Positions 4,471-59,213 of a stretch of DNA of 64,000 bases are shown one piece after another. Made by a program: the position numbers and the translations under genes. The DNA comes from Psococerastis gibbosa (lineage: Eukaryota; Arthropoda; Insecta; Psocodea; Psocidae), in assembly GCA_963971405.1 (NCBI GenBank), contig OZ020491.1, positions 5,822,855 to 5,886,854 of the forward strand, written 5' to 3'. The notes under the pieces are model-generated. The model worked only from the letters and a program-made list of their open reading frames with translations. It was not told where the DNA came from and ran no database searches. The stretch's first letter is position 1; each line of letters starts with the position of its first letter.

Positions 4471-5310
4471 TACCGCTGGTCGAAATTTTCGATTCCGAGA
4501 TTTCAATGGATTAACAAGTTTTTAGGTCCCAGGAACCCAAAAAAGTGGTTTTTACGAAATGTCTGTTTGTCTGTCTGTCTGTCGTTCTGTCTGTCTGTTC
4601 ATCGATTTCCGGGCAAACTACTCGGTCGATGATATCATGAAATTTAGCATGTAGGTTCACGTAAATCACACCTCCAGACGTTTTTTTTTATTGTGGGCTA
4701 ACTCAATTTGGGGGGTTTTATTCTCAAAAAACTCCAAATAAACGTCTAAAAAAATTATTTCTCATAAACGGCTCCAACGATTTCTTTTAAATTCACATAT
4801 ATTGTAGTCAATATTAATGTTAACAAAATGCGGGGGGTCGCTTGCCACTTGATAGTTTGCTTCCGGGTGTAAAAAAATAAAAATACATTTTAATGAAAAA
4901 TGAGTAAAAAATAATTTTTCTGCGAAACCTTTCTATCGATGATTTCTACCTTCAGGCATGTTTTAGGTGTTAAATTGAGTAACGAAACCGGACAGGTTGC
5001 TTTCCCAAAAAACTATTTGGCTTTGCACAAAAAATTATTTTTTGAAAAAATGATAGAAAATTCACGCTCAAATGCATTGCGTGCCCTGTCATTATTGCTG
5101 TATGGTAATTAATGTGTTGGTCTGACCTATCAAGACTTTATCTCACCTCCAGTGACGTCAGGTGGGCAACCCCCGCCCACCCCCTCCCCGAGATATCAGA
5201 AATTTTACCACTGGAAAATTATTTACCATGAAATTACTCATATTCTCTGTCTACTAATGTGGATAAATTGGAAAACATGTTCGAGTAAACTCGGACTGGT
5301 TCTTTTAATT
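4471..5310 (-). mobile_element. HINE-like repeat, copy 1
   Basis: This is one of at least nine near-complete copies of an ~850-bp family. The family runs from GAACCGGTCCGAGTTTACTC (5', here at the right) through a variable G/C homopolymer, a (GTCT)n stretch (here about 4562-4596) and TTTCGACC, to a terminal hairpin built on GCTTTCC/GGAAAGC. This copy lacks the terminal hairpin and stops at TACCGCTGGTCG. It has no coding capacity. Confidence 0.9.
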
Positions 5311-6169
5311 TACCGTTATATTATAACCTTAATAAATAATTATGGATCAAAATCAAAAGTTTTAATTAAAAAAATCTATATTTTTCGCGACCGCCAACGC
5401 TACCGCCTACAGCCACCACTGTTCAGGGGAAACAGACTGACAGATTAATTTGATTGCTGATATGTAAATAGTGATATAGTATGCACTTGTAACTTTAGGT
5501 ATTATTTGACTTGTTTTTATTAAGTTTGGTTTTACGCTCCTCTGCGTTTATAATCTCATTGCAATGCAAAGTGCAAAATGTTAATTTGACGCCTTGTTTG
5601 ACTTTGGTCTACGAACGAGTTGGTTACATGGTTCTCAAATTCTGGAGTCTTCTGTTCTTACTTCGTGATTTGATGCTGCGATGACGTTGAGCTTTGGGAG
5701 TGCAATTTCAGCTTTTAAAGAACCAACTTCGACTTCAATAGCAAGCTTGCATACAGAATAAATAAAATAAATAAATAAATATTGACTTTTTGTTCTATTA
5801 CGAAGCCAACCTAGCGGAGTAGAAGTGAACCCGTATATGCTTTCCTATTTAATAATTAGGATAGGCACTGTCATAGTTCATCAGTAAATAATTGTCCTAG
5901 GGTTAACTTTCGGTTGCCTCGAGCTTCCCTAAGCACAGAATTGATCGATAGGACGATTGCGTAGATTAATTAATTAATAAATCCTTCAAACCATACAGGT
6001 TTACAGACAAAAATTTATTTCGGGGGAGGGGGGGGGGGTTCCGGACTGCATGGACAACCTCCCTGGGCACGGCTATGGCAGGGTATATAATATATATTGG
6101 GGATGGGTGATGACTTATCCGTAATTTCTTTAAAAAATTATTATTTTATTATGAACCAAAATTTTATAT
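5311..6169. other. Spacer with small repeat debris
   Basis: No gene is visible. A short tRNA-SINE 3' piece occurs at 5765-5826. At about 6020-6080 a G run followed by CCCTGGGCACGGCTATGG looks like one end of a hAT-like element. The rest is unassigned. Confidence 0.6.
5765..5826 (-). repeat. tRNA-SINE 3' fragment
   Basis: It matches the 3' end of the tRNA-derived SINE seen in full at 7781 and 52062: an ATTTATTT-type tail, then TTGTTCTATTACGAAGCC and CCTAGCGGAG. The tRNA-like head is missing. Confidence 0.75.
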
Positions 6170-6660
6170 GGGAAAGCAACTGGTTACGTTTTATTTCACC
6201 TGAAACATAAGTGAAAAAAGAAAGCATCGGTAGAAAGGTCCCACAGAAAAATTATTTAGACATTTTTCATAAAAATTGATTCCTTTTTATTTTTTTGTCA
6301 CCAGAACTAGACTATCTTTGTTCGCATTAACAAGGCGGGGCTTCCACATACGTCAATCGTCAATGAGAAATATGAAATTGAAGGTTTAGCAGACATTAAA
6401 GACGTACTAAAAATTCTGCTACCACGTCAAAACCATATTTCTCATTGACGATTGACGTATGTGGAGACACCGCCTAACCACTAGAATACGTGTGAGTTAA
6501 AGAGAAATCGTTTGAGAAATAATTTTACTAGTCACTTTTTTGAGGTGGGTATGCTTTTTGTGAACGAACATGCCGAATTTCCTCAAAGTCTAATGGGTAG
6601 TTTGCCCACAAATCGACGAACAGACAAAGCATCAGACCGACAGACAGATAATATTTTTGC
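6170..6660 (+). mobile_element. HINE-like repeat, diverged copy 2, interrupted
   Basis: It is recognisable by the family segments around AGAAAGCATCGGTAGAAAGG, the TTTTTATTTTTTTGTCACC region and GTAGTTTGCCCACAAATCGA followed by GACAGACAG. A 141-bp MITE (6334-6474) is inserted within it. It abuts the next copy tail-to-tail near 6657 and is more diverged than its neighbours. Confidence 0.75.
6334..6474. mobile_element. Short MITE with 41-bp inverted ends
   Basis: The arms GGCGGGGCTTCCACATACG and, reversed, GGCGGTGTCTCCACATACG extend about 41 bp with few mismatches. The right flank is TAA and the left flank CAA, near-matching 3-bp sites. The interior contains GCAGACATT...AAGAC and CTACCACGTCA, shared with the 384-bp MITEs at 9663 and 26490, so it looks like a shortened relative. 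A 3-bp TWA target suggests PIF/Harbinger ancestry. Confidence 0.75.
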
Positions 6661-7522
6661 TTTCCAATTTTTACGTAGTATAAGGAAAGCTTTGTGACGG
6701 TCGAAATTTTCGATTCCGAGATTTCAACGGATATACACGTTTTAAGGTCCCAGAAACCAAAAAAAGTGGTTTTTACGAAATGTCTGTCTGTCTGTTCGTC
6801 GATTTCCGGGCAAACTACTCAGTCAATTTTGATGAAACTTTGCATGCAGGTTTACAAAAATCAAACCTCGGGAGCATTTATTTTTATTTTGGGCTAACTC
6901 AATTTGGGGGGTTTTTATTTTCAAAAAACTTCGAAAAAAAGGTCTAAAAAAAAATTATTTCCCAAAAACGGCTATAACGATTTCTTTCAAATTCACATAT
7001 ATTGCATTCGTTACTAATGTTAACAAAATACGGGGGGTCGCTTGCCTCTTGATATTTTGCTTCTAGGGGTAAAAAAATAAAAATAACTAAATTTTCATGA
7101 AAGATGACTAAAAAATAATTTTTCTGCGAAACCTTCCTATCGATGATTTCTACCTTCAGGTATGTTTTAGGTGTTAAATTGAGTAACGATACCGGACAGG
7201 TTGCTTTCCCAAAAAAGTATTTGGTTTTGTACAAAAAAATGTTTTTTGAAAAAAATGTTTTTTTGAAAAAAATGATAGAAAATTCACGCTCAAATGCATT
7301 GCGTGCCCTGCCAGTATTGCTGTGCAGTGATGTGTTGGTCTGACCTATCTGGAATTTACCTCACCACCAGTGACGTCAGGTGGACACCCCCCCCCCCCCC
7401 GTCCGAGATATCGGAAATTTAACCATAGGAAAATTAATTACCATGAAATTACTCATTTTCTCTATCTACTAATTTTGATAAATTGGAAAGCATGTTCGAG
7501 TAAACTCGGACCGGTTCTTTTA
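6657..7522 (-). mobile_element. HINE-like repeat, near-complete copy 3
   Basis: It starts at the hairpin end (TTTACGTAGTATAAGGAAAGC) and runs through GTCTGTCTGTCTG, the G/C-rich stretch and CACCAGTGACGTCAGG to the CTCGGACCGGTTCTTTT end. A C run lies at about 7387-7400. Short ORFs inside recur in other copies only because the DNA is repeated; they are not conserved genes. Confidence 0.93.
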
Positions 7523-7526
7523 ATTA

Positions 7527-7712
7527 TAACATATTGCGGTCGTTATTAATGTGAACCAAACGCGTTAGGTCGTTTTTCCCATGATATAGTTCAGTTCTGG
7601 GGGCATAAAAATACTATAGAAAAAAGGTTCAACTTTCATGAAAAAGGACTAAAAAAGTAATTTGTCAGATGATTTCTAACATTAGTTATGATTTTTCAAT
7701 TGCCCCCGTTCT
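7527..7712 (-). mobile_element. HINE-like repeat fragment
   Basis: A diverged internal piece: ATATTGCGGTCGTTATTAAT, then GTTCTGGGGGCATAAAAAT and a CATGAAAAAGGACTAAAAAAG segment. All align in order with the middle of the family. Both ends are missing. Confidence 0.7.
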
Positions 7713-7780
7713 TTGGAATAAGGTTAGTCGCAATTCGGAACTTAACATATAGAACTTATAATAATAATAGAATAATTATA

Positions 7781-7982
7781 GAGTAGTGGTAGACTCTGAC
7801 TTTCACCTGAAGGGTTGTTAGTTCGAATCCCACACTGGCTACATTTTCTGGCCATGCTTCGGAGGGCATGTATAGCAGGCGGTCCCGGGCCCTCCTAGTT
7901 GGGTGTAAGATAGGGCTTTATAGCCCTAACTCCGCTAGGTTGGCTTAGTAATGGAACAAAGGTCAATATTTATTTATTTGAT
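7781..7982 (+). repeat. tRNA-derived SINE, full copy
   Basis: The head is tRNA-like: GTAGTGGTAGACTCTGAC, then the B-box GTTCGAATCCCAC. It is followed by a body (GGCCATGCTTCGGAGGGCAT, CGCTAGGTTGGCTTAGTAAT) and an ATTTATTTATTT tail. Internal Pol III promoter boxes in the head would drive transcription; mobilisation needs a partner LINE. Other copies lie at 24176, 27766, 43787 and 52062. Confidence 0.9.
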
Positions 7983-8427
7983 TTTATCTATTACGGTACC
8001 TATACTTATTCTTAAAAAGGGAAAACATGTACTGTGGTTCACTCGTACCTTTGTTTAAAAAGGTGCATCTCAAAATCGTATAGCAGCCTTTCATTAGCTG
8101 ATATTAGCTGATTGGCAATGCCAAAACCTTGTTTTTAATATTCCTTTAAACTTCGATTCTCTTGCAAAAGTTGGCCAGCCCTGACCCTAGCAAAACATCG
8201 GAATGCTGGGGGAAATTATGGAAAAGTCATAATATTGGCTGTGATGCCTATCTAAGTCACGACTCGATTCGTTTTATGCTATCATTAATGTTATATTGGT
8301 TTTCATTGTATTTGCAACCAACAGTTCATTTGTTCCGAGCCCATTTTATAATTAAATATCTATAGGGGACTTTCCCTTCATTTGCTTTTTCACTGACTCG
8401 TTAGTCATCGTACAGTCTTTCAATTTA
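7983..8427. other. Unassigned spacer
   Basis: It is A+T-rich without recognised repeats or gene motifs. A 67-codon ORF at 8162-8365 has no domain and is not supported. Confidence 0.6.
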
Positions 8428-9310
8428 TTGCTTTCTCAATTTATACGTAGTATAAGGAAAGCTTTGTGACGGTCGAAATTTTCGATTCCGAGATTTCAAT
8501 GGATTTACACGTTTCAAGGTCCCAGGAACCCAAAAAAGTGGTTTTTACGAAATGTCTGTCTGTCTGTTCGTCGATTTCCGGGCAAACTACTCGGTCGATT
8601 TTGATGAAATTCGGCATGTAGGTTCACAAAAATCATACCTCGAGACAATTTTTTTTTATTTGGGGCTAACTTAATTTGGGGGACTTTTAATTTCAAAAAA
8701 CTCCAAAAAACGCCTAAAAAAATTATATCCCGAAAACGGCTCCAACGATTTCTTTTAAATTCGCATTTATTGTAGTTGTTAGTAATGTTAACAAAATGCG
8801 GGGGGTCGCTTGCCCCTTGATAATTTGCTTCGGGGGTTAAAAAAATAAAAATATGTAAATTTTAATGACTACAAAATAATTTTTCTGCGAAACCTTTCTA
8901 TCGATGACTTCTACCTTCAGATATGTTTTAGGTGTTAAATTGAGTAACGAAACCGAATAGGTTGCTTTCCCAAAAAATAATTGGCTTTGCAATTATTTTT
9001 TGAAAAAATGTTAGAAAATTCGCGCTCAAATGCATTGCTTGCCCTGCAATTATTGCTGTGTGGTAATTAATGTGTTGGTCTGACCTTTCTTGAATTATCT
9101 CACTTCCAGTGACGTCAGGTGGACAACCCCCACGGAAATTTAACCGCTGGAAAATTATTTACCATGAAATTACTCATATTCTCTATTTACTAATGTGCGT
9201 CAAATGGCCTACCAGCCAAGGACGGGCGTTGGCTAAAGAAGAAGAAGAAGATCTACTAATGTTGCTAAATTTAAAGCATGTTCGAATAAACTCGGACCGG
9301 TTCTTTCTAT
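8428..9310 (-). mobile_element. HINE-like repeat, copy 4, with a tiny LINE insertion
   Basis: The full terminal hairpin is present (TTATACGTAGTATAAGG, then AAAGC), followed by GTCTGTCTGTCTGTTCG and the rest of the family up to CTCGGACCGGTTC. The G/C homopolymer found in other copies is absent here. The element is interrupted at 9197-9250 by a LINE tail. Confidence 0.92.
9197..9250 (+). mobile_element. 54-bp LINE 3' insertion with 12-bp target duplication
   Basis: The insert reads QMAYQPRTGVG then a stop, then (AGA)n. This is the same ending as the LINE fragment at 41.4 kb (QMAYLPRMGVG, stop). It is bracketed by ATTTACTAATGT (9185-9196) and ATCTACTAATGT (9251-9262), 11 of 12 identical. This is a classic, extremely 5'-truncated target-primed insertion. 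Confidence 0.85.
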
Positions 9311-9659
9311 TGGTTATATTTTTTCCATAAAGACATTTTTCTTTTTCACAATGAGTTTATTTTTTCCTGCGTACCTGAGGGGTAGTTAGAGTGTCCCCAC
9401 GAAACCATGTTGTGCTGACAATTGTCCTAAATCAGATAATAATGATTCACTCTGGGCGCAGCTAAGTCTGGAGGTAATACACGTGGGTATCAGTGTACTA
9501 TAGCCTACTGTCATCAATTGTGCGTCATTATTAGCCAATCAGAGCGCTAGTTTCATGTCTTTTAGACTACTGATGGTTAGGCTCACTGAAGTGATAAAAG
9601 ACTTGTAACGGCGACTTAGAGGGCAATTCGCAGTTCCCAGACAAGTACGAGATAACTCC
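9311..9659. other. Unassigned spacer
   Basis: I see no repeat or gene signature here. It is moderately G+C-rich compared with its neighbours. Confidence 0.6.
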
Positions 9660-9662
9660 TAA

Positions 9663-10046
9663 GGTGCCCATTCCACTGACCGGCTAGGGCTATTTCCAAA
9701 AACGGTGACGTGGTAGCAGACATTCAAGACTTAGGTGAAGTTTCCATCGACCTCGCATTGCAGAATTGACGGAAATGTTTATTTTCCTCTATGCCATAGT
9801 TAAAATTGATCAATGATCATACAGTAAAATCACAAACAAACAAACTAAAATTAAAAAATGGCGTCATGGGATATGTTAAGTACAAACATTTTAATAGATT
9901 TCTATAAAAAGAAAAATTCTAATTTCCGTCAATGTCATTTGCATTCTGCAATGCGAGATCGGTGGAAACGCAACCTAAGTCTTGAATGTCTGCTACCACG
10001 TCACTGTTTTTGGAAAGAGCCGTAGCCGGTCAATGGAATGGGCGCC
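9663..10046. mobile_element. 384-bp MITE with long inverted ends, copy 1
   Basis: The left arm GGTGCCCATTCCACTGACCG and the right arm (reversed GGCGCCCATTCCATTGACCG) extend over 100 bp each. The flank is TAA at left and TAT at right. The interior contains ATGATCATACAGTAAAATC. Two further copies (26490, 60697) share arms and interior. The 3-bp TAA target and GG ends fit PIF/Harbinger-type MITEs; there is no transposase. Confidence 0.9.
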
Positions 10047-10118
10047 TATAGAGAAGATAGGAAGAGAGAGCGGCTACACGATGAGATTAGGGTAAGTATT
10101 AGTCTTAATATTACAGTA

Positions 10119-10632
10119 GGGGTCTTCACAGTGCTCGTGTTATCGAGTTATACCTAGTTAAGTGTGTTATATCAAGTTAAGTTAACACACCGATAACCCG
10201 ATAACCAAGCTAACCAGCGTGCTATCTTAAACGCACTTCCAAGTTGGTTAAGTGTGCTATTTAACTTGCGCTGCGATCGATAGCACAGGTTTGACCACCG
10301 CCATCTTTGTTTTTGTTGATTATTTTGAAACACGCGTTTAAAATTTTGTATTATTTAAATTTATTTGTATAATCTACTATCACAAGCAATTGCCGTAAAT
10401 ACTTAAAATTATAATAACCAAAATGAACAAAAAATATAAACAAATGTGGCAGTAGAATAGAGTTCTGCCACTTTCTTTAAAACCGTGCCACGAACGTCTG
10501 ACTACTGCCACGTTGTTTTCCCTGTTAAATGTAGCATAATAACTCATTCCCGAGGTACACTCACGATCTTGTGTTAACTTGGATAGCACATCTAACTCAA
10601 TAACTCGATAACACCAACACTGTGAAGACCCT
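10119..10632. mobile_element. 514-bp TA-flanked MITE
   Basis: The inverted ends GGGGTCTTCACAGTG and CACTGTGAAGACCC are flanked by TA on both sides (10117-10118, 10633-10634). Just inside, GTTATCGAGTTAT is mirrored by ATAACTCGATAAC. A TA duplication suggests the Tc1/mariner group or a relative. The 69-codon ORF inside on the minus strand is not a transposase. Confidence 0.8.
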
Positions 10633-12560: not shown

Positions 12561-12607
12561 CCTAGAAGACTGTCGAATGACTCCCCAGCGATATAACTAA
12601 CATTAGG

Positions 12608-13850: not shown

Positions 13851-13865
13851 GGTGAATGTATGCAT

Positions 13866-17429: not shown

Positions 17430-17968
17430 GTTGGATGAAATTCGGTATTTAGCCATTTACGTTCAAAAAATATTGACCAGGGGCCTTTATTATAATATTT
17501 TGGACATTTGTTATTTCATTTTTGTTGTTTTTTATTCCATAAACGACTAAACCTTTCATTTCTAAAAAAAAAACCCGACGACTTCTTTTAAATTCACCCA
17601 GTATATAGCCCTTATTACTGTTTAAAAAAACACTAGTCTTACCCCCCCCCCCCCTTCCTTAATAGTTTGACTCAAGATGTAAAAAATATTAAAGTCTAAA
17701 TTTTCATGAAAAATTACTAGATAAAAATGTCTTACAGAGGAACCCTTCTATGGATGTTTCTATCTTCAGGTATTTTTTATTTGCCAAATAGGGTAACAAA
17801 ACCAAATAGGTATCCAGGCAAGGTCTGGTTTGTGAAAAAAAAAAAAAAATTAATGTTATTTTGTATAAATGTTTTACCACGGAACTACCAATAATAATCT
17901 TATACGGTACCTGTACTAATTATATAATACGTTAAGTAGGAAAGCTTGTACGAGTTCAATCCAACAGA
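17430..17968 (-). mobile_element. HINE-like repeat, diverged copy
   Basis: Ordered family segments are present: GTTGGATGAAATTCGG, TTCTTTTAAATTCACCC, a C run at about 17641-17655, TTTCATGAAAAATTACTAG, ATCTTCAGGTATTTTTTATT, and a degraded GAAAGCTTGTACGAGTTCA end. The hairpin and GTCT portion are lost. Confidence 0.65.
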
Positions 17969-21387: not shown

Positions 21388-22236
21388 ACAAAGAACCCGT
21401 CCGAGTTTACTCGAACATGCTTTCCAATTTATAAAAATTAGTAGATAGAGAAAATGAGTAATTTCATGGTAAATAATTTTCCTATAGTTAAATTTCCGAT
21501 ATCTCGGGGGGGGGGGGGGTGCCAACTGACGTCACTGGAGGTGAGGTAAATTCTAGATAGGTCAGACCAACGCATTACCACACAGCAATACTGGCAGGGC
21601 ACGCAATGCATTTGAGCGTGAATTTTCTATCATTTAAAAAAAAAAAACTTTTTTTGTACAAACCAAATACTTTTCTGGGAAAGCAAGCAACCTGTCCAGT
21701 TTCGTTACTCAATTTAACACCTAAGACATACCTGAAACAAGAAATCACCGATAGAAAGGTTTCATAGAAAAATTATTTTTTAGTCATTTTTCATTAAAAT
21801 TTAGTTATTTTTATTTTTTTACCCCCAGAAGCAAACTATCAAGGGGCAAGCAACCCCCCGCATTTTATCAACATTAATAACAACTACAATATATGTGAAT
21901 TTAAAAGAAATCGTTGCAGGCGTTTTAGGGAAATAATTTTTTTAGACGTTTTTTGGGAGTTTTTTGAGAATAAAACCCCCCAAAATTGAGTTAGCCCAAA
22001 ATAAAAAAGAATTGTTCCGAGGCATGATTTTTATAAACCTACATGCCAAATTTCATTGAAATCCATCCAGTAGTTTGCCAGGAAATCGATGAATAGAGCG
22101 ACAGACAGACATTTCGTAAAAACCACTTTTTTGGGTTCCTGGGACCTCAAAACGTGTAAATCCGTTGAAATCTCGGAATCGAAAATTTCGACCGTCACAA
22201 AGCGTTCCTTATACTACGTATAAATTGGAAAGCAAA
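21388..22236 (+). mobile_element. HINE-like repeat, complete copy 5
   Basis: It runs from AAGAACCCGTCCGAGTTTAC to the terminal hairpin TTATACTACGTATAAATTGG then AAAGC(A)n. The subterminal TGCTTTCCAATTTATA near the 5' end is the inverted match of the hairpin's outer strand. A G run lies at about 21507-21519. The GTCT array is short here (ACAGACAGACA). Confidence 0.95.
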
Positions 22237-23096: not shown

Positions 23097-23938
23097 AGAA
23101 GAACCGGTCCGAGTTTACTCAAACATGCTTTCCAATTTATCAACATTAGTGGATAGAGGAAATGAGTAACTCCATGGTAAATAATTTTCCAGTGGTTAAA
23201 TTTCCGATGTCTCGGGGGGGGGGGGGGGGGTTGTCCACCTGACGGCATCGGAAGTGAAATAAATTCTAGATAGGTCAGTCAATACATTAATTACCACACA
23301 GCAATAATGGCACGGTACGCAATGCATTTAAACGCGAATTTCCTATCATTTCAAAAAATAATTTTTTGTGAAAAACCAAATAGATTTTTGGGAAAGCAAT
23401 CTGTCCAGTTTCGTTACTCAATTTAACACCTAAAACATGACAGAAGGCAGAAATCATCGATAGAAAGGTTTCACAGAAAAATTATTTTTTAGTCATTTTT
23501 CATTAAAATTAAGTTATTTTTATTTTTTTACCCCCAGAAGCAAACTATCAAGGGGCAAGCGACCCTCCGCATTTTGTCAACATTAATAACGACTACAATA
23601 TATGGGAATTCAAAAGAAATCATTGTAGCCATTTTTGAGAAATAATTTTTTTAGACGTTTTTTTGGAGTTTTTTGAGATTAAAACTCCCCAAATTGAGTA
23701 AGCCCAAAATAAAAAAAATAGTCTCGAGGCATAATTTTTTTAAACCTACATGCAAAATTTCATCAAAATCGATTGAGCAGTTTGCCCGGAAATCAACGAA
23801 CAGACAGACTGACAGACATTTCGCAAAAACCACTTTTTTCGGTTCCTGGGACCTGTAAATCCGTTGAAATCTCGGAATCGAAAATTTCGACCATCACAAA
23901 GCTTTCCTTATACTACGTATAAATTGGAAAGCAAAAAA
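23097..23938 (+). mobile_element. HINE-like repeat, complete copy 6
   Basis: Both ends are intact, with AAGAACCGGTCCGAGTTTAC at 5' and the hairpin TTATACTACGTATAAATTGG/AAAGC followed by seven A at 3'. A G run of about 16 lies at 23214-23230. There is no coding potential. Confidence 0.95.
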
Positions 23939-24119: not shown

Positions 24120-25190
24120 TACCCTGTGATGCTTAGAACCTTTAAATACCTTCCAAAACTCATTCCAGTCAAGGCATGTAGTGTAGTGGTACAGACTCTG
24201 ACTTTCACCCGAAAGGTTGCTGGTTCGAGTGCTACACTTGCTATACATTTTCTGGGCATGCTTTGGAGGGCATGTAAAGCAGACGGTCCCAGGCCTTCCT
24301 AGAGAGGGCTTTATAGTCCTAACTCCGCTAGGTTGGGTTTGTAATAGAACAAAAAGTCCTTATTTATTTATTTTTTTCCTTATTCTCCCCATAGAATGGT
24401 TATGAAAGCTCAGACATGATCTCAATCCAGCTCTGACAAGCCAGCTATCAAAATTCTTCAGGCGACCCTGGAAAGTTGAAAAAATTGTGCCTGTGATGCT
24501 GAGAACCTTCAACTTTCTGAAATTCTCCGGTGACACCCTAAACTGAGTCACCATCTACTGTGCTCCTCAAAGAAGTCTCTTTATATGCAGCACCAAAAAA
24601 ACAACAAAAAACGTAAAATGGCTCTGAAGTTGTATTGCATTGCTAAATCAGGCTCTAAAAAACCAGCAATCAAAATTCTTCAGGCGACCCTGGAAAGTTG
24701 AAAAAATTGTGCCTGTGATTCTTAGAACCTTCAACTTTCTGAAATTCCCCGGTGACACCCAAAACTGAAACACTATCTACTATGCTCCTCTAAGAACTCT
24801 CTCCATATTCACCATAAAAAGGTAAAAAGGCTCTGAAGTTGTATTGTTAAATACGACTCTGACAGATCAGCTATCAAAATTCTTCAGGAAAGTTGAAAAA
24901 ATCTGTCCCTGTGATGCTTAGAACCTTCAACTTTCTGAAATTCCCCGGTGACACCCAAAACTGAAACACTATCTACTATGCTCCTCTAAGAACTCTCTCC
25001 ATATTCACCATAAAAAGGTAAAAAGGCTCTGAAGTTGTATTGTTAAATCCGGCTCTGACAGATCAGCTATCAAAATTCTTCAGGAAAGTTGAAAAAATCT
25101 GTCCCTGTGATGCTTGGAACCTTCAAATACCTTCCAAAACTTTCTCTATTCACCCCATAAAATGGTTATGCGAGGCTCAGCAGTTGTATT
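24120..25190 (+). repeat. Tandem array of ~200-bp units (about five)
   Basis: ATCAAAATTCTTCAGG recurs at about 24448, 24669, 24871 and 25069, giving spacings near 200-220 bp. Each unit also holds CTTAGAACCTTCAACTTTCT and GGTGACACCC. A first partial unit precedes 24176 and is split from the next by a SINE. The third and fourth units are nearly identical, which suggests recent unequal exchange or conversion. Confidence 0.9.
24176..24372 (+). repeat. tRNA-derived SINE inserted in a tandem unit
   Basis: Head TGTAGTGTAGTGGTACAGAC, B-box GGTTCGAGTGCTAC, body GGGCATGCTTTGGAGGGCAT and CGCTAGGTTGGGTTTGTAAT, tail TTATTTATTTATT. Compared with 7781 it lacks part of the middle (GTTGAGTGTAAG). It separates the motif TTCCAAAACTC from the CCCCATAGAATGGTTATG that normally follows it closely. 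Confidence 0.9.
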
Positions 25191-29905: not shown

Positions 29906-30797
29906 CAAAAGAACCGGTCCGAGTTCACTCGAACATGCTTTCCAATTTATCAAAATTATTAGATAGAGAAAATTAGTAATTTTATGGCAAATATTTTTCC
30001 TATGGTTAAGTTTCCGATATCTCGGGGGGGGGGGGGGGGCGGTTGTCCACCTGACGTCACTGGAAGTGAGGTAAATTCTCGATAGGTCAAACAAACACAT
30101 TAATTACCACACAGCAATAATGGCAGGGCATGCAATGCATTTGAGCGCGAATTTTCTATCATTTTTTTCAAAAAATAATTTTTTGGGCAAAACCAAATAT
30201 TTTTTTGGGAAAGCAACCTATCCGGTTTCGTTACTCAATTTAACACCTAAAACATGCTTGAAGGTAGAAATCATCGATAGAAAGGTTTCGCATTTTTTAG
30301 TCATTTTTTCATTAAAATTTAGTTATTTTTATTTTTTTACCCCCAGAAGCAAACTATCAAGGGGCAAGCGACCCCCCGCATTTTGTCAACATTAATAACG
30401 ACTACAATCTACGAGAATTTAAAAGAAATCGTTGTAGCCGTTTTTGAGAAATAATTTTTTTAGACGTTTTTTTGGAGTTTTTTGAAAATAAAACCCCCCC
30501 AAATTGAGTTAGCCCAAAAAACGAAAAAATGGTCCCGAGGTATGATTTTTTTGAACCTACATGCCAAATTTCACTCAAATCCACTGAGTAGTTTGCCCGG
30601 AAATCGACGAACAGACAGACCGACCGACAGACCGACCGACAGACAGACATTTTGTAAAAACCACTTTTTTGGGTTCCTGGGACCTCAAAACGTTTAAATC
30701 CGTTGAAATCTCGGAATCGAAAATTTCGACCATCACAAAGCTTTCCTTATACTACGTATAAATTGGAAAGCAATACGTATAAATTGGAAAGCAAAAA
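29906..30797 (+). mobile_element. HINE-like repeat, complete copy 7 with doubled 3' end
   Basis: The 5' end AAAGAACCGGTCCGAG, a G run at 30025-30040 and an expanded GACAGACAGACCGACC array (about 30611-30650) are present. The terminal hairpin TTATACTACGTATAAATTGG/AAAGC is followed by a second partial copy (ATACGTATAAATTGGAAAGC) before the A run. The doubled terminus is unique among the copies here. Confidence 0.95.
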
Positions 30798-33985: not shown

Positions 33986-34820
33986 AAAAGAACCGGTCCG
34001 AGTTTACTCGAACATGCTTTCCAATTTATCAAAATTAGTAGATAGAAAAAATGAGTAATTTCATGGTAAATGATTATCCTATGGTTAAATTTCCGATATC
34101 TCGGGGGTGGGGGGGGGGGGGGTGTCCACCTGACGTCACTCGTCACTGGTGGTGAGGTAAATTCTAGATAGGTCAGACCAACACATCACCACACAGCAAT
34201 ACTGGCTGGGCACGCAATGCATTTGAGCGTGAATTTTCTATCATTTAAAAAAAAACATTTTTTGAACAAAACCAAATACTTTTTTGGGAAAGCAAACTGT
34301 CCGGTTTCGTTACTCAATTTAACACCTAAAACATACCTGAAGGTAGAAATCATCGATAGGAAGGTGTCGCAGAAAAATTATTTTTTAGTCATTTTTCATT
34401 AAAATTTAGTCATTTTTATTTTTTTACCCCCAGAAGCAAACTATCAAGGGGCAAGCGACCCCCCGCATTTTATCAACATTAACAACAACTACAATATATG
34501 TGAATTTAAAAGAAATGGTTGGATTTTTTTAGACATTTTTTTGAAGTTTTTTGAAAATAAAACCCCCCCAAATTGAGTTAGCCCAAAATAAAAAAAAATA
34601 GTCCCGAGGTATAATTTTTGTGAACCTACATGCCGAATTTCATCAAAATGGACCGAGTAGTTTGCCCGGAAATCGACGCACAGACAGACAGACATTTCGT
34701 AAAAACCACTTTTTTGGGTTCCTGGGACCTTAAAACATATAAATCCGTTGAAATCTCGGAATCGAAAATTTCGACCGTCACAAAGCTTTCCTTTTACTAC
34801 GTATAAATTGGAAAGCAAAA
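33986..34820 (+). mobile_element. HINE-like repeat, complete copy 8
   Basis: The 5' end AAAGAACCGGTCCGAG, G run at about 34103-34122, short GACAGACAGAC array and the 3' hairpin TACGTATAAATTGGAAAGC followed by 11 A are all present. A small deletion lies near 34520 relative to other copies (GTTGGAGCCGTTTTTGAG missing). Confidence 0.95.
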
Positions 34821-43893: not shown

Positions 43894-44713
43894 ACTCTAC
43901 ATGTCACTAGTGACGTAATATTGGTTGAAATGGCCAGAAGTAGTAGAAAGCTTATTTTCATACTATAACTTTCATACTATTGCATAACATTTTTATTGGT
44001 GATAAAAGTTTATTTTTATATTACGTCTTTTTAATTCCTTTCCAGCAATCCTGGGACAAGGTAACGTAACATCAATTAGATGTATATGGGCAATTCGTGT
44101 TGCCCGTGGTACTGGACAAACTGTTGTATATTGACGCGTTGCATGAACCCCCCCCCCCCAATAAAAAAAACGTTCCAGCTACGTACGACAGTGACGCCCG
44201 TTATAATGGCTCCAGGATTTCTTTTAAATTCTCATATATTGTAGTTGTTATTAATGCAAACAAAACCCAATAGGCCGTTTGTCCTTTGATAGGTTACTTC
44301 TGGGGGCTGAAAAATAAGAATGACTCAATTTTCATGAAAAATTACTGCAAATTTTTTTTTTCTGTGGACGTTTCTTACTTCAGGTATGTTTCAGATGTTG
44401 AACGGAATAACAAAACCGAACAGCTTGCTTTTAGTCCAGGAGATATGTATTGCATTGAGATCGGCTGTTTCTCAGTTACTATTAAGGGTAGGAAAAAGCT
44501 TATGCATGCTTTATTGTAGCAAATTTTATGTTCTACAACTTTGAATTATACTTTTTGGTCCAAACCCGCTTAGCTTAGAAGCTATGAGCGAAAATCTGAT
44601 ACAAGTCGGAAAATTTTGAGGTTTTCCCCCCCACAGCACAGGGTCCTCGAATTGGATAACTTGGCAGAATCATCCCACAGCATCCCCGAGGAAACTGTAA
44701 AAGTTAACTTAAC

Positions 44714-44850: not shown

Positions 44851-45062
44851 AGGTAGCATAGCATGCTACTATTACTGTGTTGAATCGAATTATATTGGTC
44901 TGTCCGTTCTGAACTATGGAATCGTCCCATTGATCAATTCAGTGCTTTGGGATAGGGATAATCGAAATTTAACCCTAGGACAATTATTTACCAAGCATTT
45001 GTTACAGTACCTATCCTAATTGATAAATTGGGAAACATGAACGGGTTCACTCATAACGGTTC

Positions 45063-45484
45063 TTTTGACTGTGTGTGTACAGTATGTTGAAAATGTACAG
45101 TACGAATGCAATACCCCTGACATGACGAGGTGGAATAGAAACTCAGGCAGGGGGAATATTGGCGGAAAGTTTGATTTGGCATAAGCTAAACATAGCCTTT
45201 GCGACCATGACGCAATATCAAACAAGACAAAATCTAATTACCATAGGAACATCAAAGCAACTTTATATATTCCCTCCCAAAATGAAATCTTCTTATTAAC
45301 TTGCTTTCTCTTCAGGTAAAGAGCAATAGAGGAAGTGCGACCATTTCTAATTTATATATTTAATACTATCGATTCTTCAAGAACGTGCTAACTTGATTCC
45401 GAATGGAAGGTGTCACTTCTTTGTTCCTTCTGGAGCCATTTTGAAGTAGTCTACCATCGATGTATTGTACGTGTCACCTTCGCC
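45063..45484. other. Unassigned spacer
   Basis: No gene or recognised repeat. Confidence 0.6.
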
Positions 45485-47040
45485 GGTTGAGGTCCCAGGA
45501 ACCCAAAAAAGTGCAGCCTGTCTTTTCCTGCTGTAACCATACCATTGGTCATGGCTTCATGGACACGGCAAAATCAAACCACATGAGAATTTTTCTCTGA
45601 ATTAGGTATCCCAATTATGGCTAAATTCATAAGCCCGTATTCTCTAACATGATGCTTTACAGGGGCTATGAAATCCTGTCCCACTGCAGCAATGGAGATA
45701 GTACTGGACTTCCCACCCCTCCATGTTTCAGTGGAAACTTCAGCCGAAATGGCATTATTAGGAGCGGGTTAAAATGGAGTGGAAGGGCAGTTAAGAGAGA
45801 CTCAGCCTCTCTGACTACGTCTGACCACTGCCTGGATATGCCAAGCGATAGAATCCATCCAAAATACTGTTTTAGGAGGGAATTCGAAACTATATTAGGG
45901 ACAAAGAAAGAATACTGCGAATCAGCAGGAATTCTCAATAGTCACACAATCAAGTGGTTTACTGATGGCTCTAAGCTGGGACATACAAAACCAAGAACAG
46001 GCCTTGGCGTCTTTGGTCCTGGGGTTAAATATCTGAAGTCTCTTGGGGATACAACTACAGTCTTGCAGATTCTGCAATGAAGGAGTGGAGGACCTCAAGC
46101 CCATTCTCCTTCATTGCGATACAATCGCACGAAGAAAAGCAGCATGCTCGGGAAGCTTGCAGTTACATGTAAAAGACCTACAACTTCTAAATCCCCTCAA
46201 GATCCTGGTTCTCCTGAGGGAGATAGTTCTCGAGGAAGAGATGTAGAAGTGGTGTAGATACTTTGTTGTAGGGGCACAATAGGCCAAATAGGTTTAAGTG
46301 CACACAGGTAACACCTGTACCCCAATTTAAAAAAAAAAGAAAAAAAAAGTGGTTATTACGAAATGTCTGTCTGTCTGTCCGTCGCTCTGTCTGTCTATCC
46401 ATCGATTTCTGGGCAAACTAATTGGTCGGTTTCGATGAAATTTTGCATGTAGGCTCACAAAACCATACATTTTCTGCTAACTGAATTGGGGTTTTATTCT
46501 CAAAAAACTCCAAAAAAACGTCAAAAAAAATTATTTCTCAAAAACATACCAACGATTTCTTTTAAATTCACATACTGTATATTGTAGTCGTTATTAATGT
46601 TGACAAAATGCTGGGGGTCGCTTGCCCCTTGATAGTTTGATTCTGGGGGTAAAAAATAAAAATAACTACATTTTAATGAAAAATTACTAAAAAACAATTT
46701 TTCTGGGAAACCTTTCTATCGATGATTTCTACCTTCAGGCATGTTTTAGGTGTTAAATTGAGTAACGAAACCAGACAGGTTGCTTTTGAAAAAAACTGTT
46801 TGGGATTGTGCAAAAAAGTATATTTTGAAAAACTGAAAGCATATTCATTGCTGTGTGGTAATGTGTTGGTCCGTATCTAGAGTTTACCTCACCTCCAGTA
46901 ACGTCAGGTAGCCGACCCCTCCCCCCGTGATATCCGAAATTTAATCATAGGAAAATTATTTAACATGAAACTAATCATTTTCTCTCTCTACTAATTGATA
47001 AATTTTAAAGCATGTTCGAGTAAACTCGGACCGGTTCTTT
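45485..47040 (-). mobile_element. HINE-like repeat, copy 9, split by a LINE
   Basis: The left piece GAGGTCCCAGGAACCC then AAAAAAGTG (to 45513) and the right piece (GTGGTTATTACGAAATGTCT onward, from about 46340) rejoin exactly as in uninterrupted copies. The right piece runs to CTCGGACCGGTTC. The hairpin end is missing at the left. The GTCT array lies at 46363-46398. Confidence 0.92.
45514..46348 (+). pseudogene. 5'-truncated LINE inserted in a HINE-like repeat
   Basis: The frame at 45685 gives LDFPPLHVSVETSAEMALL, a segment typical of RNase H-bearing LINEs. WFTDGSK follows at about 45955 (first RNase H aspartate). A large internal deletion joins the domain start to the C-terminal CRFCNEGVEDLKPILLHC zinc knuckle (about 46051) and LLREIVLEEEM before a stop. 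A 3' UTR and an A-rich tail (46330-46348) follow. The repeat AAAAAAGTG at both junctions is a plausible target duplication. Several frameshifts disable it. Confidence 0.85.
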
Positions 47041-48436: not shown

Positions 48437-48444
48437 TCCAGTGA

Positions 48445-50498: not shown

Positions 50499-50501
50499 TT
50501 A

Positions 50502-51094: not shown

Positions 51095-51097
51095 TTA

Positions 51098-52246: not shown

Positions 52247-52334
52247 TTTTGATCTGGTTTCGAATTTTGTCTAGCCCGATCCTGACCTGACCTGAACAGT
52301 GTAGAACAATTTAAAGAGTATCTTCTCTCCTTAC

Positions 52335-53504: not shown

Positions 53505-53512
53505 CTTTTAGG

Positions 53513-54626
53513 GTGAGAAGACATTGTCCAGTTCATAAAAGCGCAACGCATAAAGATGACAGGGGCATATCGGAAGACACGCTTTTAATGCCGTCAGACC
53601 GAATGACACCCCTGCTCTCATTCAGCAAACCATTTAACACTAGAATTCCAGCTAGAGAAGAATGGAATGCTGAAGAACATCAAACAGGGGACAATGACCT
53701 AGTCTGGTATACAGATGGGTCGAAAATGGAAAATGGGGCTGGAGGAGGAGTCTATGGGGAAACTGTAGACAAATCCATAGTCCTCAGCCTCGGCAAATAT
53801 GCTACAGTCTTTCAGGCTGAGGTAGGGGCCATTATAAAATGCCTAGAGGAGTGTATGGAAATGGAATGCAAGGGCAAAACCATTATTATCTATACAGACT
53901 CGCAGGCAGCGATTAAGGCTGTGGGGGCTATAAAGATCACATCAAAAATGGTGTGGCACTGCACCAACCTCCTAATAAAGGTGTGTCGGGAAAACTCAGT
54001 CTCGCTGATTTGGGTCCCGGCGCACTCGAACTTTGATGGGAATAAAAGAGCCGACGAGCTGGCTCGAAAAGGTGCAGAAACGCCATTCATTGGTGCAGAA
54101 CCTAAGTACGGGATGGCTTATTGCCAGGTCCGTACTTCTGTACAAAAATGGGTGCAGAAAAAAACTGCAGAGGAATGGAAGAAAGTCCCGGAAAGCAGAT
54201 TTGCTAAGAAGGTTATTCCGGGTCCTAGTAAAAAGCTCACCGATCAGCTTCTCTCTTTAAGTAGAGAGCAAGCTAGAAGGGTGGTTGGCACGCTTACGGG
54301 CCACGGCCACTTCAACAAACACATGCATAGGGTTGGCGTGAAAAACGACAGTAGATGCAGACTGTGAGAAGTTGAAGAAGAAACAGCTGAACACATTCTC
54401 TTTGAATGTGAAGCGCTGGGACAAACTCGATATCAAGCTCTTGGCCACCCTAGGTCTGAAGAGGAAACCATCCGATCTAACCCCATCACAAAAACACTAG
54501 AATTCATCAAAAAGACTGGTGTTATAAGATGGGCGTAGACGGCAAACGTGGAAGCAAAAGACCTTCTAGGTCGACGCTTATAGGAACTCAAACGAGTAGA
54601 CCCCACGAAGGAAAAAAAAAAAAAAA
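53513..54626 (+). pseudogene. LINE with intact RNase H domain, zinc knuckle broken by a stop, A tail
   Basis: A 284-codon frame carries a full RNase H domain: VWYTDGSKMENGAGGG (first Asp), YATVFQAEVGAI (Glu), IIIYTDSQAAIKAV (Asp) and VPAHSNFDGNKRADELA (His/Asp end motif). All acidic catalytic positions are present. It continues through LTDQLLSLSREQARRVVGTL and HMHRVGVKNDSRCRL, where TGA at 54365 interrupts the zinc knuckle. Beyond it the frame continues EEETAEHILFECEAL to a natural stop after GVIRWA. A 3' UTR and an A run (54606-54620) follow. Endonuclease and reverse transcriptase are missing by 5' truncation. Confidence 0.9.
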
Positions 54627-54654
54627 GAGATGACAGTGACACGTCATAATAATG

Positions 54655-54815
54655 TCAGACGACGGCATACCGAAAAAGATGCAAACGGCAAACATGGCAG
54701 GAAGACGACTGGCCGGACGTCCTCAAAAAGGCTGGAAGGATTGGAAGGATGTTACTTGCTCGACTAAACGTAGGTAGAGAAGATTTTGGCCAAATATCAA
54801 AAGCGAAAATAAATA
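54655..54815 (+). pseudogene. LINE C-terminal fragment
   Basis: One frame reads GRRLAGRPQKGWKDWKDVTC then a stop and RRFWPNI. The GRPxKxWxDxxxD motif fits a LINE C-terminus. It is a separate, short fragment just past the A tail of the previous LINE. Confidence 0.55.
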
Positions 54816-54837
54816 GTGCTAACCATGGGACCAACTC

Positions 54838-55190
54838 ATTGCAAATAAAAGTTGAATACACCACAACAGAACATATTCAAAGCTGCATTCAACTTGGTAG
54901 CGTGCTCAGCGCAGCGTTGGTGGGGGACCATGGTGGGACATAAAAACGCGTTGAGATTACCAATCAGTCGAAGTGTGTGTCGAGTCCTGTCACCTCCAAA
55001 TTAATTGTGTGACTATTTTCCACAAGTGGTTCGGAATCCACTATAATCAGGAGGTTCACCCTGTCAGTCAACTCTCGTTCTCCCTGAGGTGAAGGTGTCT
55101 GCCGATAGGGTGCCTCAAGCCAATAAACAGACTCACTCCCCCCCCCCCCCCCCCCCGCCTGACAGAATTGTTGTGTTGAAAAACTAACAA
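54838..55190 (+). repeat. 5S rRNA-derived SINE, long subtype
   Basis: CATTCAACTTGGTAGCGTGC, GCGTTGGTGGGGGACCATGG, TCCAAATTAATTGTGTGACT and CACAAGTGGTTCGGAATCCA, then the long-subtype body (GTCAACTCTCGTTCTCCCTG, AATAAACAGACTCACTCC). It carries an unusually long C run (55137-55156). Confidence 0.87.
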
Positions 55191-56094
55191 GCACAATGTG
55201 TGATTATTATGTTTGTTAGGCTTGCTGGATGATTTAGTACATCTGTGTGGGAAGACTTGAATATCAGGGCAGAAATTTTCAATTCGTTGCAAGATCTCTG
55301 TATAGATCCTAATAATAGTTGAGTTCATTATGATATGCAACAATAAGAAAAACCTTCTAAACTTACTTTCCACGTAGATTTCATCAAATTTCAATCTATA
55401 AAAAAAAAAATGGCCAAAAAAGCAAAACTACGTCACAGTCACAGCAGCATTGGTTTCGAAAATTGCAAACATTACTAACTTTTATTATATACAGTACCTA
55501 TATTGTACATTATACACGTATACGAGTATCTGTATAAAGCTTGCACGCATTATAAAATTAAAACTCTGGAAGTTTAAACTTTATCATCATAATAACCAAA
55601 TTTTCAAATATATTCAGAAAATATCCAGCAATAAGGAAATATTACCAAAAAGGTCACATTTTTTGTATCGCAACGAAACGTTGCTCTAGAATCATACGAT
55701 GAACTGGTTTCGAAAATGAAATTTAAGATTTCAAATTGCATGTATGTTTGAGAACACGAAGGGCATATGAAAGCCACATTCAATTGATCATTTAGACCCT
55801 TATAAACTTGCAAACTGCTTCATAAATATTTTTGGATTTATATATTTTACTTTGATAAGGCCCGAGAAAATATTCTATTGATTGAGGAAATTTGTATGTT
55901 AGCCTTGTACAGATTCTTTCATCAAATTTTCATTTTTTCCATTTGAATTATGCATATGTCGGCCAGGTAAAAAAATACATTGCCATTCTCGTCTAGAAGC
56001 CACTTTTTCAATGATTCAATTCCAGTTTTTTGGTGTACTTAAAAAAAAAATAATGAAACGTATAGGGTTTTTGTGTTGTAAAGAGAGGGAGGAT
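55191..56094. other. Unassigned A+T-rich spacer
   Basis: No gene, repeat or structural RNA is recognised. The ORFs present are A+T-driven. Confidence 0.55.
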
Positions 56095-56099
56095 GCGAA

Positions 56100-56980
56100 A
56101 GCGATATAAAATTGTAATATCAGGATAGGACAAATTCAGAGAAATGGCCGAAATGTAAGTATACCCTGCATGATAATTATATAGCGCAAAGTAAAAGGAT
56201 TGTGAAGAGAAAAGTGGAGTAACTCCTCCACGTGGCGGAGAATCAGGATAGGACCAATACAGAGAAATTACAGGAGTGTTAGTAGACGCTGCATGATCTA
56301 TAGTGCAGAGTGAAAAGGTTGTGAAGAAAAAAGAGGAGCAACTCCTCCATGTGGCGAAGAATCAGGATAGGACTAATACAGAGAAATGACAGGAATGTTA
56401 GTAGACGCTGCATGATCTATAGTACAGAGTGAAAGGGTTATGAAGCGAAAAGAGGAGCAACTCCTCCATGTAGTGGAGAATCAGGATAGGACAAATTCAG
56501 AGAAATGACAGGAATGTTAGTAGACCCTGCATGATCTATGGCGCAGAGTGCTGGGCTCTGTAGAAAAAGAGGAGCAACTCCTCTATGTGGTGGAGAATCA
56601 GGATAGGACAAATTCTGAGTAATGACAGGAATGTTATTAAACGCTGCATGATCTATGGTGCAGAGTGCTGGGCTGCGAAGAAGAAGAGGAGCAACTCCAC
56701 CATGTGGCGGAGAATCAGGATAGGCAAAACTCAGAGAAATGGCAGAACGGTAAGTAGACCCTGCATGACCTATAGCGCAGAGTGCTGGGCTGTGAAGAAA
56801 AACCATTTGAGCAACTCCTTCATGGGGCGGGGATGATGATGTTACGCTGGGCAGCTGAAGTAGCCCTGGTAGACAGGCGAAGATATGACCAGGTCAGAGC
56901 TGAATTGAAAACTGCCGACATCACTCGCAAGGTGAGTCATCTTCAGAAAAGGATTGAAGAGTCGGGAAAGGGTTGAAGAG
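56100..56980 (+). repeat. Tandem array of ~119-bp units derived from a LINE coding segment
   Basis: ATCAGGATAGG recurs at 56119, 56242, 56361, 56480, 56597 and 56714, spaced 117-123 bp. Each unit holds AATGACAGGAATG-like, CTGCATGATCTATAG and GAGGAGCAACTCCTCCATG segments. In one frame units read RPCMIYGAECWAVKK, the LINE ORF2 stretch between reverse transcriptase and C-terminus. The last unit continues into MLRWAAEVALVDRRRYDQVR, AELKTADITRKV and QKRIEES, so the array arose by multiplication of one part of a LINE. Confidence 0.9.
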
Positions 56981-57052
56981 TATAAGGGAAGTATAAGAAT
57001 AAGAGATGGGTGGGTATTAGGGTTGAAGAGAGTAACCAGGGGAGAGTTTGAG

Positions 57053-57113
57053 TAACCTGCAAGGCATAGATCGTGGGTTCGAATCCCACCGACTCTAGAA
57101 TTTTTTAGATCTT
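57053..57113 (+). repeat. tRNA-like SINE fragment
   Basis: ATAGATCGTGGGTTCGAATC then CCACCGACTC supplies a T-arm and B-box. The following ATTTTTTAGATC and CGAGGAGGTTGC parallel the flank of the tRNA-like element at 2.5 kb. The 5' half of the tRNA-like part is missing. Confidence 0.55.
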
Positions 57114-57159
57114 TTCATATCGGTTACAACGAGGAGGTTGCTTCTTGAACATAAGATTT

Positions 57160-57480
57160 TTTTTTCTGTTCATCAAGTCGCAGCCGGTTGGCTTTTTGTC
57201 CATAACATGTGGCATCGATGCCTCCACTCCCCTCGATTATGGCATGCCCCCTTCAGCTCTATGTACATCCTCCATCACTTGCTGCAGATATTCTTTTGTC
57301 GGGCCTTCTATATGGTTCCTTCAATGATGCAGCTGAAGAAGTTCTCGTGTCGTAGCTAATGTCCGATCCAGCGAGCTCTTCTTGTAAGTTACATATGAAT
57401 GCAACAAGGGTTTAGCTTTTTCTCTTATTCCGGTTAGAACCTCCTCATCGAAAACCTTGGTTAGCCAAGGTATTCGTAAC
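57160..57480 (-). pseudogene. LINE ORF2 C-terminal remnant
   Basis: The minus-strand peptide RRMLRIPWLTKVFDEEVLTG continues IREKAKPLLHSYVT; with frameshifts LRHENFFSCIIEGTIEG and EYLQQVMED follow. RMLRIPW...VxxEEVL...RHENxxxxIIEGxxEG matches the ending seen at 13.9-14.2 kb. Several frameshifts and stops are present. Confidence 0.78.
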
Positions 57481-57552
57481 ATGCGACGATAATCATAGTG
57501 AGATTCTCCAAAGTGACTTCGTGGAACTTCATCATACTTAAAATTTTTGTAT

Positions 57553-57667
57553 GAATAAGACCCAACTGATCCACAATAAAATATATTAACAGTGACCAAA
57601 AGGCTGATGATCGTATCTTACCGAAACCGGTTAATAAATTTTATTGTGGCTCAGTTGCGTCTAATTC
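57553..57667 (+). ncRNA. Hammerhead-like core inside 38-bp inverted arms
   Basis: The arms 57553-57590 (ending CCACAATAAAATATATTAAC) and 57630-57667 (starting GTTAATAAATTTTATTGTGG) pair with few mismatches. The 39-nt centre contains CTGATGA (57604-57610) and CCGAAACCGG (57621-57630). CTGATGA plus GAAAC with an ACCGGT palindrome are the conserved hammerhead boxes, arranged as in Penelope-like elements. The predicted helix II (TCGTATCTTAC) is weak, so self-cleavage is uncertain. Confidence 0.55.
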
Positions 57668-58336
57668 TTTCAACAATTCTAATTGCGACGAGAACACCAC
57701 ATCTCAAAAATTTGAAATCTACCTAATTGCTATCTTGGCCTCTGAAAATTTTGAAGTGACGCCACTGTTTACAACATAGTGATGTAGGCTACACAATTAC
57801 AAAATGTGTGAATTTGAAACCCACGCCAGTCTTTTCCTTTAAATAGGTACGGTATTTCAAACGAAAATGTATGTAGCCTATGTATTTAAAGCTGTAACGC
57901 TGAAAAGCAGCTGTATTTTCCATCAATACAAACTTGCCCATTCGTACATATTACCCCCTTGAGAAGACGCTGCGAACTGATGTAAATATACAATGTGCCT
58001 GGAATACATTATTTGTTGGTTCGAACGAAGCAGAAAGAAGAAAAAAGAATAATACAATAAATTTCCCAATATGGATATTCCTAATGTCACTTTACACCCT
58101 ATCCAACGTTTGCGTTCGCAGAATACAATATCAATTTCCATGTCGCAACATATCCAATGATTTTTGAAAGAAAAAAAAAACTCATTTTATGTCGCTACAA
58201 TGCACCAACAGTCAAACAATCAACGATAATAAAATAAAATAGATGTCGCTTCCCCATGTGTGTGGAGTGCGGGTAGTGGTGAAACGCCTGGGCAAATGAC
58301 AAAGAAAGCGTATTCAGGTTATAGGGTACCAACATT
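57668..58336. other. Unassigned spacer
   Basis: No gene or recognised repeat. ORFs at 57923-58167 overlap on both strands and lack domains. Confidence 0.55.
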
Positions 58337-58337
58337 A

Positions 58338-59213
58338 AAGAACCGGTCCGAGTTTACTCGAACTTGCTTTCCAATTTATCAAAATTAGTAGATAGAGAAA
58401 ATGAGTAATTGCATGGAAAATAATTTTCCTATTGTTAAATTTCGAGCATCTCGGGTAGGGGGGGGGGGGGTGTCCACCTGACTACACTCGAGGTGAGGTA
58501 AATTATAGATAGGTCAGACCAACAAATTACCACACAGCAATAATGGCAGGGCGCGCAATGCATTTGAGCGCGAATTTTCTATCATTTTTTCAAAAAATAA
58601 TTTTTTGTGCAAAACTTAATAGTTTTTTGGGCAAGCAACATGCCCAGTTTCGTTACTAAATTTAACACCTAAAACATACCTGAAGGTAGAAATCATCAAC
58701 AGAAAGGTTTCGCAGAAAAATTATTTTTTAGTCATTTTTCATTAAAATTTAGTTATTTTTATTTTTTTACCCCCAGAAGCAAAGTATCAAGGGGCAAGCG
58801 ACCCCCCTCATTTTGTCAACATTAATAACGACTACAATACATGTGAATTTAAAAGAAATCGTTGGAGCCGTTTTTGAGAAATAATTTTTTTAGACGTTTT
58901 TTCAGAGTATTTTAAAAATAAACCCCCCCCCCCCCAAATTGAGTTAGCCCAAAATAAAAAAAATGGTCCTGAGGTATAATTTGTATAAACCAACATGCCG
59001 AATTTCATCAAAATCGACCTAGTAGTTTGCCCGGAAATCGACGCACAGACAGACAGACAGACAGACAGACAGAGCGACAGACAGACATTTCGTATAAACC
59101 ACTTTTTCGGGTTCCTGGGACCTCAAAACGTGTAAATCCGTTGAAATCTCGGAATCGAAAATTTCGACCATCGACCACAAAGCTTTATACTACGTATAAA
59201 TTGGAAAGCAAAA
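58338..59213 (+). mobile_element. HINE-like repeat, complete copy 10, longest GACA array
   Basis: The 5' end AAAGAACCGGTCCGAGTTTA and 3' hairpin TACGTATAAATTGGAAAGC followed by A are intact. The tetranucleotide array at 59044-59089 is the longest in the window (about 10 GACA units with one interruption). A G run lies at 58459-58471 and a C run at 58923-58936. Confidence 0.95.

Follow-up and report, generated by a model that had tools for sequence, protein, structure and literature searches.

A very abundant and very probably Helentron-derived HINE family of about 850 bp in the genome of Psococerastis gibbosa

The DNA analyzed here, referred to as the window, is a stretch of 64,000 bp from Psococerastis gibbosa (G000:C19:5822855-5886854), and the assembly in which its repeats were searched comprises 409 Mb in 68 contigs. 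The window contains nine long copies and further fragments of a dispersed repeat family of about 850 bp, which is read here as a family of HINEs, i.e., non-autonomous elements of the Helentron class. The family accounts for 8,592 of the 64,000 bp (13.4%), which agrees with an earlier note on this DNA that had described such a family in over a tenth of the window, and both element ends are kept in seven of the nine long copies. In the orientation adopted below, the members found in the window are the following:

4477..5304, plus strand: HINE copy, 5'-truncated by 41 nt
6124..6642, minus strand: three same-strand fragments (6124-6316, 6475-6542, and 6548-6642), perhaps one old copy
6657..7519, plus strand: full HINE copy
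7515..7666, plus strand: internal fragment adjoining the 6657-7519 copy
8428..9305, plus strand: two-ended HINE copy, with a 54-bp interruption at 9197-9250
17541..17811, plus strand: old internal fragment (69%)
21391..22235, minus strand: full HINE copy, running from TTGC at 22235 (true 5' end) to TTCTT at 21391 (3' end)
23099..23934, minus strand: full HINE copy
29909..30794, minus strand: full HINE copy, of which 29909-30773 is the copy proper and 30774-30794 a duplicate of its 5'-terminal 21 nt
33988..34818, minus strand: full HINE copy
44205..44431, plus strand: internal fragment
44964..45064, plus strand: 3'-end fragment of a diverged copy (72.6%)
45487..45513, plus strand: exact internal piece of 27 bp
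46343..47039, plus strand: older HINE copy, 80% identical to the consensus and 5'-truncated by 103 nt
58338..59211, minus strand: full HINE copy with a long GTCT array

The internal GTCT/GACA array reported in the earlier note was located at four places in the window (4560-4598, 30611-30649, 46366-46404, and 59045-59087), and the sequence GCTTTCCAATTTAT, which marks the element ends, occurs 17 times there with no more than two mismatches, whereas 100 shuffles gave 1.67 occurrences on average and never more than 5. The tandem duplication of the 5'-terminal 21 nt, at 30753-30794, has its break in the hairpin loop; it was considered as a recurrent signature of the family and discarded, given that its exact match is unique genome-wide, in this window copy.

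A consensus of 850 bp was built from 17 full copies, seven from the window and ten from other genome loci, which diverge from it by 3.1-13.0%, the low divergences being biased by the choice of seven copies (L002-L008) as the best matches to one window copy. In the true orientation, the element is composed of TT-GCTTTCCAATTTAT, the inverted arm GTATAAGGAAAGC, (GTCT)n, a body with a C-run, ATAAATTGGAAAGC, the hairpin GTTCGAG-TAAA-CTCGGAC, and CGGTTCTT, and in the aligned copies of the window and the other loci one end starts with TTGCTTTCC and the other finishes with GGTTCTT. The 5' subterminal inverted repeat (subTIR) is the 14-bp GCTTTCCAATTTAT, which begins at consensus position 3, i.e., 2 nt from the end, and its inverted 14-bp copy forms the 3' subTIR at positions 809-822, ending 28 nt from the 3' end; inverted matches of at least 12 nt between the first 20 and the last 60 nt were obtained in none of 20,000 simple shuffles. 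The complementary arm GTATAAGGAAAGC lies at position 22, just inside the 5' subTIR, with which it forms a hairpin of -8.1 kcal/mol as DNA (z -5.15) that was equalled in stability by none of 200 shuffles. The GTCT array occupies positions 126-141, in the left module, while the G/C homopolymer of the earlier note is indeed present, its longest C-run ranging from 5 to 25 nt across the 17 full copies. The 3' hairpin, GTTCGAG-TAAA-CTCGGAC, has a 7-bp stem and stands after the 3' subTIR, 8 nt from the 3' end. Coding capacity is not evident, and the longest stop-free frame of the consensus has 109 codons. A second TTGCTTTCC, with the same nine bases as the 5' end, is found mid-element at consensus position 546, and it may represent an older join, or chance.

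Published HINEs have subTIRs of 11-15 bp, the first of them 2-4 nt from the 5' end (PMC4067079). Their left module contains a microsatellite and, in DINE-1, an inverted repeat beside the 5' subTIR, while a palindrome follows the 3' subTIR (PMC4067079, PMC2374699, PMC7492417). The family of P. gibbosa presents subTIRs, a complementary inverted repeat, a 3' palindrome, a T-rich target, a left microsatellite, and no evident coding sequence. Given that it fits the published layout only in this direction, its orientation was reversed in relation to the earlier note, in which the 5' and 3' labels were swapped and the true 3' hairpin (GTTCGAG/CTCGGAC) fell at the supposed 5' end. The repeat near both ends that the note described is real: in that note's orientation it lies 28 nt in from one end (for example, 21391 to 21419), and its inverted copy 2 nt from the other. 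The hairpin that the note took for 3'-terminal is real, but it actually consists of the 5' subTIR and its inverted partner.

Among the known systems, a close likeness in layout is seen in the DINE-1/INE-1 elements of Drosophila, which share the 5' subTIR (13-14 bp) with an adjoining partial inverted repeat, a GTCY microsatellite in the left block, the lack of a significant open reading frame (ORF), a 3' hairpin a few nucleotides past the 3' subTIR, and a WTT target (PMC2374699, PMC4067079), in addition to a variable number of T at the ends (PMC4067079). The subTIR sequence, on the other hand, differs (ATACCCGTTACTC and others in the Drosophila table), and the central tandem repeat of DINE-1 is not evident in the family. 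HINE-Mo of a mite and HINE-Cq of a mosquito also have the subTIR 2-4 nt from the 5' end, a 3' palindrome at 8-35 nt from the 3' end, and a T-rich target without target modification, although Helentron partners were found for several of those families and none here (PMC4067079). In Cg_HINE of the Pacific oyster, the left flank combines the 5' subTIR, the complementary inverted repeat, and a microsatellite of mostly 4 nt, and the right flank the 3' subTIR and the palindrome, and no Helentron partner could be linked there either, whereas the satellite-like central arrays of the oyster elements have no equivalent in the family (PMC7492417).

The target site was approached by searching the joined flanks of the 17 full copies against the fetched sequence and the genome, with the 40 best candidates scored. 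Three insertions (L006, L036, and L048) sit in other repeats that have readable uninterrupted paralogues. At L006, the empty site TATATYA-TTTTT-ACTG corresponds to the filled site TATATCA|TTGC...GGTTCTT|TTTACTG, and the insertion point is spanned at 19 other genome loci, three of which were read; at L036, the empty site TATATTTTA-TTTT-ATTTGACC corresponds to TATATCTTA|TTGC...GGTTCTT|TTATTTGACC, and the point is spanned at 21 other loci, three of them also read. At L048, the empty site lies inside a run of about ten T and is spanned at two loci, both read. In both L006 and L036, the flanks plus TT equal the length of the empty site around the junction, save for single substitutions. Given these three comparisons, the element enters a T-run after A or T, with TT added or duplicated at most, as the earlier note had proposed to check in terms of insertion at TT without duplication. 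The A/T that it saw after the hairpin is present, but wherever an empty counterpart could be compared (three sites) it is a pre-existing host T-run plus TT. The other 14 of the 17 insertions yielded no empty site in this joined-flank search; a further paralogue of L048 (L047 4773-4974) was set aside due to a junction that was too diverged, and an attempt at A_C3 was unusable because of a second, neighbouring HINE.

The filled alleles of L006 and L036 are two T longer than the empty ones. If this difference is taken for a duplication of TT, the family might be a miniature inverted-repeat transposable element (MITE) derived from a cut-and-paste DNA transposon that has subterminal inverted repeats and duplicates TT on insertion. 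This is very unlikely: the inverted repeats do not lie at both very termini, being asymmetric at 2 nt from one end and 28 nt from the other, and the extra inverted arm at one end with a hairpin at the other corresponds to the published HINE layout. An equal TT ambiguity has, moreover, been described for DINE-1 (PMC2374699).

The flanks of the wider set of copies follow the same pattern. In the aligned rows, A or T precedes the 5' end in all 24 cases, and T follows the 3' end in 20 of 24. Of the rows for the 5' end, three come from a single site shared by three copies of one large Helitron, two from a single site in both copies of a duplicated region, where the element begins with AT rather than TT, and one (window 30773) lies within its own 21-bp duplication. 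Genome-wide, the 7,578 exact 5' ends are preceded by A in 3,639 cases, by C or G in 621, and by T in 3,318 by subtraction (91.8% A or T), and the 7,013 exact 3' ends are followed by T in 5,552 (79%) and by other bases in 1,461. A similar preference, for WTT, is reported for the DINE-1 elements of D. yakuba (PMC2374699).

The A that precedes TTGC in 48% of the exact 5' ends could be read as the A|T insertion of a canonical Helitron, and open Rep-helicase frames of 1441-1671 codons are present in the genome, so that the family might instead be a non-autonomous member of the canonical-type Helitrons found there (groups A, B, C, and D). This reading is extremely improbable, as the family has neither the 5' TC nor the 3' CTRR of canonical Helitrons, ending in TTGC...GGTTCTT, and T rather than A precedes TTGC in 44% of the exact 5' ends, which departs from A|T insertion. 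The 3' end of group C, on which the comparison of 3' ends was made, is also unlike that of the family; read by eye in three copies, it is ...GGAGACACTTG followed by TT, with nothing evident in common.

The two ends are similarly frequent, with 7,578 exact matches to the 5' end and 7,013 to the 3' end across the genome and none to the reversed-pattern controls, which speaks against one-sided truncation. The family has several thousand copies, and the true number must exceed the exact-match counts, given that many known copies differ from the exact patterns. Spacing was sampled in the first 4.74 Mb of C1, where the nearest same-strand exact 3' end, among the places listed for each pattern, lies at 700-1000 bp for 33 of 93 exact 5' ends, at 300-700 bp for 2, at 1-2 kb for 7, at 2-20 kb for 10, and at more than 20 kb for 41. 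The pairs at 2-20 kb were considered as long members and not retained, the neighbours being so dense that the spacing does not point there.

These counts also bear on the alternative raised in the earlier note, i.e., an A-tailed retroposon with the tail of a short or long interspersed nuclear element (SINE or LINE) in that note's orientation, which could account for the A-rich stretch after the supposed 3' end and for the internal microsatellite. The run pre-exists the insertion in all three empty sites, whereas a retroposon would bring a tail added on insertion and target duplications of 7-20 bp. Direct repeats of 7-25 bp abutting the junctions were found in none of the 17 full copies; the longest abutting repeat in these measures 2-6 nt and averages 3.8, while 272 mispaired flanks average 3.6 and reach 8 at most. 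In addition, the Rfam and tRNA search returned no match inside any window copy, and the similar end counts do not fit one-sided truncation. The retroposon is therefore rejected, with next to no probability left to it.

The family is thus very probably a non-autonomous element of the Helentron class, namely a HINE of DINE-1 layout, of about 850 bp and without evident coding capacity. The assignment, which the earlier note had made, is supported by the anatomy and by the three paralogous empty sites in T-runs. Some observations weigh against it. The 3' hairpin is short, at -3.1 kcal/mol, and 47 of 200 shuffles of the same sequence are at least as stable. The distance between the 3' subTIR and the 3' end is 28 nt, against 38-60 nt in mite HINEs, a range that comes from seven mite families, is not stated as a rule for all HINEs, and was not used for exclusion (PMC4067079). 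The empty sites of L048 are diverged (the one in L047 has 80.7% identity over 207 columns) and lie in a long T-run, and a TT duplication is indistinguishable from TT carried by the element. The L004 copy stands between direct repeats of 96 bp (1409-1504 and 2366-2461) with 90.6% identity, which may stem from an older tandem repeat or from a local duplication that accompanied the insertion; none like them occur in the 100-bp flanks of the 16 other full copies. The orientation follows from the layout and not from an ORF, which suggests a direction of transfer rather than proving it, and PMC2374699 notes that the naming of 5' and 3' is arbitrary without an ORF. Finally, no autonomous element with the ends of the family was found in the loci read, including the Rep-helicase partner with both termini that the earlier note had proposed to seek.

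The search for such a partner returned 20 profile matches to PF14214 and 15 to PF05970, and about 20 kb around ten Rep loci were read. Motif 2 of Rep was readable in 16 of the 20 PF14214 loci, some of which overlap, while L017, L024, L027, and L028 gave none. All the readable motifs but that of L020 are RGLPH or RGMVH (RGMVHAH in group A, represented by L009 and L010, and RGLPHAH in groups B, C, and D), without the S residue that precedes P in motif 2 of Helentrons (PMC4067079). The frames of 1441-1671 codons belong to groups A, B, and C and, as judged by eye, extend no more than about 35 residues past the last helicase motif, which leaves no room for a fused endonuclease. The PIF1 matches read are those of groups A-D, and six more lie outside these groups, on C12, C13, C15, and C19. 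A 62-bp match to the end of the family, downstream of two Rep genes on C21, was discarded, as it looks like a deletion derivative of about 105 bp with both ends of the family, rather than an end that belongs to the Rep gene itself. In a separate observation, three canonical-type Helitrons with 1671-codon ORFs (L013-L015 and L037-L042, on C1, C14, and C15) are about 99% or more alike over some 14 kb and adjoin arrays of satellite repeats of roughly 1 kb, their right ends being ...GGAGACACTTG and then TT.

One Rep ORF of the Helentron type was found at G000:C15:2836273-2839677 (L047/L048), on the minus strand, with 1,135 stop-free codons in a single copy, the motif CGSPHAH, and the domains Helitron_like_N and DUF6570. 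Its HxH and YxxxYxxK motifs look intact by eye. No recognisable helicase was found in this ORF, nor any frame of at least 80 codons within 3.6 kb downstream. It is the sole open ORF of its type, the remaining matches to it, at two places on C20, being decayed. The HINEs that flank it were considered as a composite and rejected, given that both are full copies and that of L048 has its own empty site. The partner was probably lost, decayed, or missed, leaving the family an orphan; that it is still served in trans by the Rep-only protein of C15, perhaps with a host or Helitron helicase, is a slim chance.

Based on the published work on Helentrons and HINEs, transposition may have begun with a Rep/helicase/endonuclease made elsewhere, which would nick the DNA within the 5' T-run. 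Displacement of a single strand would then proceed to the 3' hairpin, acting as a terminator, and this strand would be joined to T-rich target DNA at a nick. The source of the enzyme would now be lost or decayed, which may have left the orphan family.

Other observations concern the surroundings of the copies. Paired exact 3' ends on the same strand, 324-325 bp apart, occur on C1 at 3002194/3002519, 3285941/3286265, and 3379207/3379531. In the one pair that was read (L057), on its 3' side, one copy seemingly ends in the T-run of another, so that the pairs may represent either a preferred site or a spread composite. TTAGG, the telomere repeat of many arthropods, forms arrays in the last 16 kb of C1, among the places listed. 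In the window itself, outside the HINE copies, the sole Rfam/tRNA match is a tRNA-Thr at 2476-2548. A 119-bp tandem repeat has six copies at 56119-56830, one frame of which resembles, by eye, a piece of the C-terminal region of a LINE reverse transcriptase, and a 196-bp tandem repeat has 2.2 copies at 97% at 24692-25126, with a weaker third copy that starts at 24479.

The family is ordinary in kind, a further and very abundant member of the known HINE class, and a search of the literature by topic, without comparison by sequence, found no published description of it. If the Rep-only protein of C15 did move thousands of HINEs, the Rep and helicase functions would be separate here, unlike in known Helentrons, where they are fused. 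For annotators, a rolling-circle element is a better filing than an A-tailed SINE, and the case illustrates that a HINE is easily drawn back to front where no ORF gives its direction. The family adds to the class a very abundant member whose ends and target are fixed by paralogous empty sites.

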